Shown here one piece after another: positions 15,323 to 17,369 of a DNA stretch of 48,529 bases (position 1 is the stretch's first letter; every line of letters starts with the position of its first letter). The position numbers and the translations under genes are program-made. Source of the DNA: Alphaproteobacteria bacterium (GTDB lineage Bacteria; Pseudomonadota; Alphaproteobacteria; UBA8366; GCA-2717185); NCBI GenBank assembly GCA_028822585.1, contig JAPKDL010000013.1, positions 1 to 48,529 of the forward strand, in the 5' to 3' direction. The notes under the pieces were generated by a model. That model ran no database searches, was not told where the DNA came from, and saw nothing but the letters and a program-made list of their open reading frames with translations.

Positions 15323-15991
15323 TTAATCAAGTGATTGCCGGATCGCCGCCGCCCCCGCCCAGGGTGCCAAAGGCAGGGCGGTGGCCAACACGGCGGCCAG
15401 GATAAGAAGATGCGGTTTGGCGGGCAGTCCGGCGATGGCCGCATCCATCGCGCCGACCGCAAATATCAACACGGGTATATAAAGTGGTAACACCAGCAAG
15501 GCAATCAAGGCGCCGCCACGCCGCGCGCCCAGGGTCAACGCCGCGCCTGCCGCCCCCATCAGACTGAGAATGGGCGTGCCCAGCGCCATGGACATGAACA
15601 AGGTGGCGTATCCGTCCGTAGGCAGATTCAACAATAACGCGAGAACCGGTGCGGCCAAGATCAACGGCAATCCTGTCACCACCCAATGCGCCGCGACTTT
15701 GGCCAGAACCACTAATTCCAACGGCAGGGGTCCCAGCGTCAGAAGATCTAGTGACCCGTCGTCGTAATCGGCCTGAAACAGATGATCGAGTGATAGAACT
15801 GCGGCCAGCAAGGCGCACACCCACAAAACCCCCGATGCCATCCGCGCCAGAATATTCGGTTCCGGGCCAACGCCTAGCGGAAACAATGCCGTGGCGATCA
15901 GGAAGAACATCAAAATCATGATGATATCGGTCCCCTGACGTAAGGTCAGGCGCACGTCGCGCGCGATAATAAGGCCCATGGCACGGATCAT
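15323..15991 (-). CDS. ccmB: Heme exporter membrane protein CcmB
   Basis: An integral membrane protein of 222 residues and six predicted helices, the permease partner of the CcmA ATPase. The beginning (LIIARDVRLTLRQGTDIIMILMFFLIATALFPLGVGP) and the FQADYDDGSLDLLTLGPLPLELVVLAK segment are the family's most conserved regions and are intact. It overlaps ccmA by 4 bases, so the two subunits are translated together. Confidence 0.95.
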   Translation of the reverse strand: MIRAMGLIIARDVRLTLRQGTDIIMILMFFLIATALFPLGVGPEPNILARMASGVLWVCALLAAVLSLDHLFQADYDDGSLDLLTLGPLPLELVVLAKVAAHWVVTGLPLILAAPVLALLLNLPTDGYATLFMSMALGTPILSLMGAAGAALTLGARRGGALIALLVLPLYIPVLIFAVGAMDAAIAGLPAKPHLLILAAVLATALPLAPWAGAAAIRQSLD

Positions 15992-16668
15992 GCGGAACCC
16001 TCGTCATCCAGAACGGATGGGGCAGTGGGTTCGAAGTGGTCTAACGCCAAGGTCTTCACGTCGCCCAACTGCAGCGCTGTGTGCGTTGAAACAACCGTCA
16101 TGCCGCCCGTTTTGCGATGCGCTGCAATCAAGTCTTCAAGAGATTGCGTCGAGGCCGCGTCCAACCCAACGCTAGGTTCGTCCAGCAACCAAAGACCTGC
16201 CGGCGTCGCGGCCAGGCGCGCCAGATTGGCGCGGCGTCGTTGTCCGGACGACAACAGTCGCCCCGGCAGATCAGCGAGGTCGCGCAAATCGAACGCCAAC
16301 AACGCCGCTTGAACTGCTTCATCATTGCGCGTCCCGTGCAGCGCCGCCCAGAACGTGACGTTTTCGGCCACGCTCAAAGCGGGCTTGATGGCGTCCTGAT
16401 GTCCGACATAGTGCAAATCGGCGCGGTGGGCGTCCGGATCGTCGCGTATTTCCGCGCCGTAGTGAAAAATTTGTCCCGCCGCTGGACGCAACAGCCCCGC
16501 CATCACCCGCAAGAGACTAGACTTTCCGCTGCCGTTCGGCCCGGACAACACCAGCACCTCGCCCGCTGGCACGGCGAAGTTCAGACCTTCAAACACCTTA
16601 CGGTCGCCACGAATGCAGTCGAGCGCGGTTCCGCGAAAGGCGCGGGTGTCTGGGAAATTATTCGCCAT
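15988..16668 (-). CDS. ccmA: Heme exporter ATP-binding protein CcmA
   Basis: A short ABC ATPase of 226 residues that, with CcmB and CcmC, drives release of heme-loaded CcmE. Walker A is SGPNGSGKSS (about residue 41), the signature LSSGQRRRANLARL is near 130, and Walker B is WLLDEPSVGLD. The compact length without extra domains is typical. It is the first gene of the ccm operon. The 290 bases upstream hold a terminator and a candidate small RNA, so the operon promoter should lie between 16669 and about 16750. Confidence 0.95.
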   Translation of the reverse strand: MANNFPDTRAFRGTALDCIRGDRKVFEGLNFAVPAGEVLVLSGPNGSGKSSLLRVMAGLLRPAAGQIFHYGAEIRDDPDAHRADLHYVGHQDAIKPALSVAENVTFWAALHGTRNDEAVQAALLAFDLRDLADLPGRLLSSGQRRRANLARLAATPAGLWLLDEPSVGLDAASTQSLEDLIAAHRKTGGMTVVSTHTALQLGDVKTLALDHFEPTAPSVLDDEGSA

Positions 16669-16750
16669 TTGGGTCCGTCATGAAGGTTTAAGGTCGTGAA
16701 ACACCGCAATATATAGCATCTGTTGCTCGGAGAGTTCACTGGTATTGCCG

Positions 16751-16787
16751 AAAAAAGAACGGTCGCTGGGGGTGGGCCAGCGACCGT
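16751..16787 (-). terminator. Intrinsic terminator upstream of ccmA
   Basis: A perfect 11-base inverted repeat (ACGGTCGCTGG at 16759-16769 and its complement at 16777-16787, 7-base loop). On the minus strand it is followed directly by TTCTTTTTT. This is the strongest rho-independent terminator in the window. It stops minus-strand transcription arriving from the right before it can enter ccmA. Confidence 0.8.
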
Positions 16788-16866
16788 CCTGAACAGAAAC
16801 CCTCATCGGGCCCGTTCATCGGGACTGTCGAGGAGACAACCCCGCCTGAGAGGGGAGGTCTCAGTA
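16751..16866 (-). ncRNA. Candidate small RNA of about 115 bases
   Basis: Between the thioesterase gene and ccmA, the minus strand holds in order a promoter-like pair, a structured stretch and the strong terminator. The start is placed near 16866, about 7 bases after the -10-like TATATA. The first hairpin has a perfect 6-base stem (CTGAGA/TCTCAG) presenting the 7-base loop CCUCCCC. An alternative, longer stem (GAGAC...CCCC/GGGG...GUCUC) competes with it. Two CCCGAUGA repeats follow and then the terminator hairpin. A C-rich loop complementary to ribosome-binding sites is known from several alphaproteobacterial regulatory RNAs; whether this belongs to any of them is inference. It does not match 6S, SRP or tmRNA features that I know. 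Confidence 0.4.
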
Positions 16867-16872
16867 GGATCT

Positions 16873-16902
16873 ATATATGGGGCTGCGATCGTGGCGGCCC
16901 AA
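16873..16902 (-). promoter_or_regulatory. Promoter-like sequence for the candidate small RNA
   Basis: On the minus strand, TTGGGC (16902-16897) and TATATA (16878-16873) are separated by 18 bases. The match to the housekeeping consensus is moderate (about 3 and 4 of 6 positions). Its placement just upstream of the structured stretch and terminator is what makes it noteworthy. Confidence 0.35.
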
Positions 16903-16907
16903 TGCCT

Positions 16908-16937
16908 GAAATAAGGTGATTTTATGGCAATATCACC
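16908..16937 (-). terminator. Weak terminator-like hairpin after the thioesterase gene
   Basis: A perfect 6-base inverted repeat (GGTGAT at 16915-16920, ATCACC at 16932-16937, 11-base loop) begins 18 bases after the thioesterase stop. On the minus strand it is followed by TTATTTC. The stem is short and the U-run broken, so termination would be partial. Confidence 0.35.
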
Positions 16938-16955: not shown

Positions 16956-17369
16956 TTAGCCTTTTAGGGCTTTCGCCTTTGCGACCTTGGCCTCGACTTT
17001 TTCTTTCAGCTTATTCACATCGACGACGAAGCGGCTGTGGGTGCCGGTGCAAACCTCGTCGATGCCGTCATGGGCGACGACGTTGAAGGTGATTTTTCGG
17101 CGGTCGATTTCCCTGACCGTGACGGTAATGTCAACGGACATGCCAAGCGGACTGCCCGCGCCATGGATGACTTCGACATAGGTGCCGACGGAATGTTCAT
17201 TGTCGTCGGCGTATTCCTTGATGAAGTCCAGACAGGTATGTTCGATGTCGCGAATCAGATCCGGCGTGGCGTAAACACGCAAATCTTCCCCCAGAAACCC
17301 AATTGTACGGTCCTTGTCGACGAGGATGGTTTCTTTGCGGATCATGCCTTCTTTAAAGGTGTCTTTCAT
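16956..17369 (-). CDS. Thioesterase-like hotdog protein
   Basis: A 137-residue single-domain protein resembling the FlK/fluoroacetyl-CoA thioesterase group of hotdog enzymes. An N-terminal substrate segment (VDKDRTIGFLGEDLRVYATPDLIRDIEHTC) and the central SVGTYVEVIHGAGSPLGMSVDITVTV strand-helix region are followed by a Lys/Ala-rich tail. It has no signal peptide. It lies 15 bases after the end of a decayed P450 gene on the same strand, so it was probably transcribed with it. It is followed by a weak hairpin. Its acyl-CoA substrate is unknown. Confidence 0.75.
   Translation of the reverse strand: MKDTFKEGMIRKETILVDKDRTIGFLGEDLRVYATPDLIRDIEHTCLDFIKEYADDNEHSVGTYVEVIHGAGSPLGMSVDITVTVREIDRRKITFNVVAHDGIDEVCTGTHSRFVVDVNKLKEKVEAKVAKAKALKG

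Follow-up and report, generated by a model that had tools for sequence, protein, structure and literature searches.

The 48,529-nt stretch of alphaproteobacterial DNA analysed here (the window) carries, on its minus strand and directly upstream of ccmA, a small RNA gene for which sequence comparison strongly supports a real, free-standing existence across many alphaproteobacteria. After its position we call it the ccmA-upstream C-loop RNA. We think it rather probable that the RNA is independently transcribed, acts in trans and uses a C-rich loop to block ribosome-binding sites, with ChvG/ChvI control of its promoter and its targets being predictions.

Results

Anatomy of the small RNA gene

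The gene is located between a gene encoding a FlK-like thioesterase (stop at 16956) and ccmA (start at 16668) and consists of the following parts.

16751..16865, minus strand: small RNA gene of about 115 nt, defined by its fold z-score, a covariance model and homologues, with the predicted 5′ end at 16865/16864
16864..16846, minus strand: stem-loop SL1, CUGAGA-CCUCCCC-UCUCAG, with the loop CCUCCCC at 16858..16852 and a nearly invariant anti-SD-like core
16844..16820, minus strand: SL2, a covarying stem
16817..16791, minus strand: SL3, a covarying stem
16790..16751, minus strand: SL4, an intrinsic terminator with its stem at 16790..16756, the loop CCCACCC and a U-run

A first-pass annotation of this DNA had proposed a hairpin with a 6-base stem and the loop CCUCCCC, followed by a terminator stem, and both were found at the positions given for SL1 and SL4. 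The terminator stem comprises 14 pairs if the flanking G-U and A-U pairs are counted and is followed by TTCTTTTTT up to 16751. No ORF of at least 50 aa was found inside the RNA on the minus strand, in agreement with the earlier statement that none fits. The 119-nt RNA folds with -58.8 kcal/mol (z = -5.05), and none of the shuffled sequences was equally stable.

The same annotation had pointed to a repeated element and to a competing, longer fold of SL1 that could be regulatory. The repeat is present, as CCCGATGA is duplicated in the RNA of the window. According to the alignment of homologues, both the CCCGAUGA repeat and the GGGG that would permit the competing fold are specific to the window's genome. 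Only when a 37-nt fragment is folded by itself is the longer structure the minimum; in the full RNA, within which the SL1 pair probabilities are 0.92-1.00, it is 3.9 kcal/mol worse. We rejected it as less stable in that context and not conserved, and because of this lack of conservation neither the competing fold nor the repeated element is supported.

Conservation and covariation

A blastn-type search matched 16 of 59 relatives. The exact 19-mer of SL1 was detected in 25 contigs in a collection of 84,980 species, and 23 of these contigs belong to alphaproteobacterial or proteobacterial assemblies and possess the full anatomy. The two archaeal 19-mer matches (L021, L029) lack the rest of the anatomy and were taken as chance, as were the low-score model matches L086-L089, L275 and L282 for the same reason. 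In an alignment of 25 distinct sequences, 17 of the 31 base pairs showed compensatory changes and 97.5% of the cells were paired; this value dropped to only 32-50% when the pairing partner was slid by 1-3 columns.

The first-pass annotation had staked its proposal on conservation of the hairpins in related genomes. This was looked for, and a covariance model built from 25 homologues matched 41 of the 43 genomes of the window's order, most of them metagenome assemblies, including all 21 genomes of good quality (21/21); covariance-model E-values are rough. Nearly all genomes of the order that carry the RNA possess one copy. Searching 385 genomes of the class with a broader covariance model built from 43 sequences, we identified the RNA in 36 of them at E <= 1e-3, further families included, a count that reflects strict filters and the divergence of the RNA outside the order and is no measure of absence elsewhere.

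In the broader alignment of these 43 sequences, compensatory changes were observed in 29 of 31 pairs, with 95.8% of cells paired compared to 80.7% in shuffled alignments. The loops of SL2 and SL3 are variable among homologues, and here SL1 itself varies with compensation (CUGAGA/UCUCAG, CGGAGA/UCUCUG and others); nothing but the C-rich core GA(C/U)(C/U)UCCCCUCU is close to invariant. Within this core, UCCCC is predicted to be unpaired with a probability of >= 0.8 in 42 of the 43 sequences. Tandem copies of the RNA were observed in two genomes, at L084 (1501-1609 and 1807-1906, both upstream of ccmA) and L100 (1956-2117 and 2200-2359).

Because its stems covary, because it is present throughout the order and because it has its own conserved promoter and terminator, the small RNA with an exposed, C-rich, anti-SD-like loop that had been proposed upstream of the ccm genes is strongly supported as an independent RNA. 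Its own promoter, conserved structure, own terminator and lack of a conserved ORF are what would be expected of a trans-encoded small RNA.

Position relative to ccmA

Two features lie on the downstream side of the RNA.

15988..16668, minus strand: ccmA (haem exporter ATPase), the conserved downstream neighbour, outside the RNA
16712..16718, minus strand: TGCTATA, the probable extended -10 element of a separate ccmA promoter

Of the 41 genomes of the order with the RNA, 30 have it directly upstream of ccmA and in the same orientation. Outside the order, 15 of the 16 model matches that reached E <= 1e-6 share this position, as do 22 of the 27 loci that were read and 12 of the 14 loci L270-L283, which were absent from model building. 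Such a linkage is what a cis-acting leader or attenuator of ccmA would show, but a leader would always be upstream of and co-transcribed with its gene. The 11 other genomes of the order that carry the RNA lack a ccmA within approximately 1.5-2 kb and have the RNA and its promoter beside other genes. Furthermore, the RNA is closed by a strong terminator, and the motif TGnTATA occurs in 21 of 47 gaps between the terminator and ccmA compared to 0.7% of shuffles; therefore, ccmA often has a promoter of its own past the terminator. Given these eleven genomes and the frequent presence of a separate -10 element for ccmA, we do not regard the RNA as a ccmA leader and consider that reading very unlikely.

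The 5′ neighbour of the RNA is not conserved and varies between species, which also speaks against a leader. In the window it is the gene at 16956-17369 (-), encoding a FlK-type fluoroacetyl-CoA thioesterase-like protein (PF22636, E 6e-30), which stands beside the RNA in the window's own locus and in no relative's. In part of one family (L072, L073, L074 and L091), the RNA adjoins a gene for a LysE-type exporter; on its other side, L072 has hprK-rapZ, genes that follow chvIG in many alphaproteobacteria.

The promoter contains an 11-bp direct-repeat box

The region upstream of the RNA contains the following elements.

16872..16877, minus strand: TATATA, an AT-rich -10 element with conserved position
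16893..16928, minus strand: upstream box of four half-sites with an 11-bp period, a predicted site for ChvI (OmpR family)
16928-16926, 16917-16915, 16906-16904 and 16895-16893, minus strand: the half-sites GCC, ACC, GGC and GCC, respectively

The first-pass annotation had paired TATATA with TTGGGC as the -35 element; in the sequence, a spacer of 18 nt separates TTGGGC from ATATAT and one of 19 nt separates it from TATATA. The -10 element stood up to comparison. At the -35 position, however, there are 11-bp direct repeats and no conserved TTGACA-like box, and no candidate passed in a sigma-70 promoter scan of the RNA promoter. Because the upstream part is a direct-repeat box of the response-regulator type, the proposed promoter pair was half right.

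When 50 promoters were aligned on one anchor, a conserved C appeared at four positions exactly 11 bp apart (0.98, 0.98, 0.95 and 0.85). Across these promoters, the half-sites are of the GCC form (GCC-N8-GCC type) and are followed by an AT-rich -10 element. The box scores 40.9 bits with a matrix of the RNA promoters, the best value in the whole window, the next being 9.9. Tandem repeats of 11 bp are characteristic of response regulators of the OmpR family. Two other readings of the box were rejected: a sigma-54 promoter, since there is no GG at -24 and the spacing is off by one, and a palindrome of the CRP/FNR or LysR type (TTGCC-N8-GGCAA), our first idea, because the period-11 pattern of four half-sites in the 50 promoters fits an OmpR-family repeat better.

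The same box precedes chvI

The consensus for ChvI in S. meliloti is N-GCC-N8-GCC, a direct repeat of the type found in the RNA promoter; in the Caulobacter work, another motif, TTGC-N3-GCAA, is proposed for ChvI (PMC9731502). In Caulobacter, ChvI binds the promoters of chvI, chvR, the unstudied RNA CCNA_R0088 and other genes, and the activity of the chvI promoter drops in a chvI deletion (PMC9731502).

We found chvI in 42 of 43 genomes of the order; in G011, G026 and G033, the match contains one in-frame TGA in an otherwise open frame. A matrix built from the RNA promoters alone was run over the 340 nt upstream of chvI, with 606 other upstream regions as controls. The chvI upstream regions exceeded the 95th control percentile in 27 of 30 genomes, with a median of 5.9 compared to -13.7 bits and p = 1.4e-17, a p-value that overstates independence because the genomes are related; the effect is present in each of the four families. 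In GC-rich genomes, a GCC triplet by itself lacks specificity; it occurs in 120 of the 606 controls. In most of the genomes examined, the autoregulated gene chvI and the RNA share the same box.

Control by another OmpR-family regulator, CenR-like or orphan, would leave the small RNA as described and change only its regulator. It is possible because the repeat used by CenR of Rhodobacter, TGA-N8-TGA, has the same 11-bp period (PMC9275681). CenR activates envelope genes in Rhodobacter and also ccmF and cycH (PMC9275681), and the first half-site of the box is often GTCAC, which contains TCA. The second half-site, however, is nearly always GCC, and the box stands before chvI in most genomes of the order but was absent in the matrix scan upstream of the other two OmpR-type regulators of the window's genome. 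We therefore judge this alternative unlikely and favour ChvI.

The window's own genome also has MarR-type and OmpR-type regulator genes in tandem (L284, 919-2175) in a petP-petR-like arrangement. The same box was observed upstream of genes for IalB-family, OmpA-family, LprI-like secreted and L,D-transpeptidase-like proteins (L101, L103, L132 and L134); these few additional intergenic boxes of the order came from a pattern search, and the genes behind them could possibly form an envelope regulon.

Comparison with known RNA families

Neither the window nor any of 20 homologous loci gave a match at the Rfam gathering threshold. The nearest family is ar14 (RF02344), also known as NfeR1 or 'cuckoo', and the RNA could be a diverged member of it. 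Both are alphaproteobacterial trans-encoded RNAs of the same size (approximately 120 nt) with hairpins that expose C-rich anti-SD-like loops and with a conserved upstream activator site, and ar14 gives the best Rfam match, scoring 26.5 bits for the RNA of the window and 30.5 bits for that of L064. These scores, however, remain far below the gathering threshold of 58.8 at every locus tested, and a search with RF02344 over the whole genome gave no match. Whereas ar14 RNAs present three CCUCCUCCC loops, an LsrB site (TGCA-N6-GCAT) and, in Sinorhizobium, NtrC control, the RNA upstream of ccmA has CCUCCUCCC in no loop; it has one UCCCC core in the SL1 loop CCUCCCC, a C-rich terminator loop (CCCACCC), the 11-bp repeat box as a different upstream motif and the linkage to ccmA, which is not reported for ar14 in the literature examined. 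Membership in ar14 thus appears decidedly unlikely, but the RNA probably works like an ar14 RNA.

In the scheme proposed below, the RNA resembles ChvR of Caulobacter crescentus, a ChvI-controlled small RNA that base pairs through stem-loops. ChvR is Hfq-independent, and its gene, located upstream of recF/gyrB, has been reported to be specific to C. crescentus (PMC6237742), whereas our RNA occurs in many families and beside ccmA. The window's genome contains hfq, and the RNA carries a U-run. The aR8 family (MmgR, SisA-D) is likewise widespread in alphaproteobacteria, conserves a C-rich anti-SD motif and is usually present with one copy beside one conserved gene, but its UUUCCUCCCU is single-stranded and its neighbour is an N-formylglutamate amidohydrolase gene (PMC12559287); identity with aR8 was rejected on account of both the motif and the neighbour. 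PmaR of Agrobacterium also has a C-rich loop for pairing and envelope targets, but it forms just one spoon-like hairpin and is confined to Agrobacterium and its close relatives (PMC6234868), and identity was rejected on these grounds. We found no description of a small RNA linked to ccmA in open-licence full texts.

Predicted mechanism and targets

Under cell-envelope, acid or osmotic stress, ChvG would activate the OmpR-family regulator ChvI, which would bind the direct-repeat box and switch the RNA promoter on. The CCUCCCC loop of SL1 would then pair with GGGGAGG-type ribosome-binding sites of target mRNAs, perhaps assisted by the C-rich terminator loop, and translation of these mRNAs would fall. 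In such a scheme, the RNA would be a widely conserved counterpart of ChvR in its Caulobacter role. The RNA has a switch region that matches that of chvI, so it is likely to silence other messages upon damage to the cell surface.

We searched the 43 genomes for candidate targets with GAGGGGAGG-N3-11-ATG, that is, for nine perfect matches to a ribosome-binding site. This search resulted in 95 matches, of which 91 were fetched and 61 had an open frame. Shared target genes were limited to a handful of pairs between close relatives, two pairs from broad permease families and one pair of small isomerase subunits that are 62% identical (L179/L216); for the perfect 9-mer, no ribosome-binding-site target in the 43 genomes recurred beyond close relatives or broad permease families.

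This lack of a conserved mRNA target is what might be seen if the RNA did not block ribosome-binding sites but bound proteins or paired with other RNAs as a sponge or decoy, and a sponge in Caulobacter does target the C-rich anti-SD motifs of aR8 RNAs (PMC12559287). The near-invariant, exposed UCCCC, however, complements purine-rich ribosome-binding sites, as it does in several proven RNAs of the aSD type. For this reason we regard a sponge, decoy or protein-binding function as unlikely and retain pairing with ribosome-binding sites as the preferred reading.

Discussion

In enteric bacteria, envelope-stress regulators use small RNAs to shut down surface proteins. To our knowledge, the RNA arm of the alphaproteobacterial ChvG/ChvI response has so far been represented only by the Caulobacter-specific ChvR. 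We give about an even chance to the proposal that the RNA described here represents an undescribed family that is linked to the ccm genes, dates back to an ancestor of much of the Alphaproteobacteria and forms the conserved RNA arm of this envelope-stress response. A covariance model is now supplied for this family, which is missing from Rfam 15. With its predicted ChvI promoter, a class-wide RNA would provide a conserved handle on this branch of the envelope-stress response, and its retention beside the genes for cytochrome c maturation suggests a link between envelope stress and respiration.
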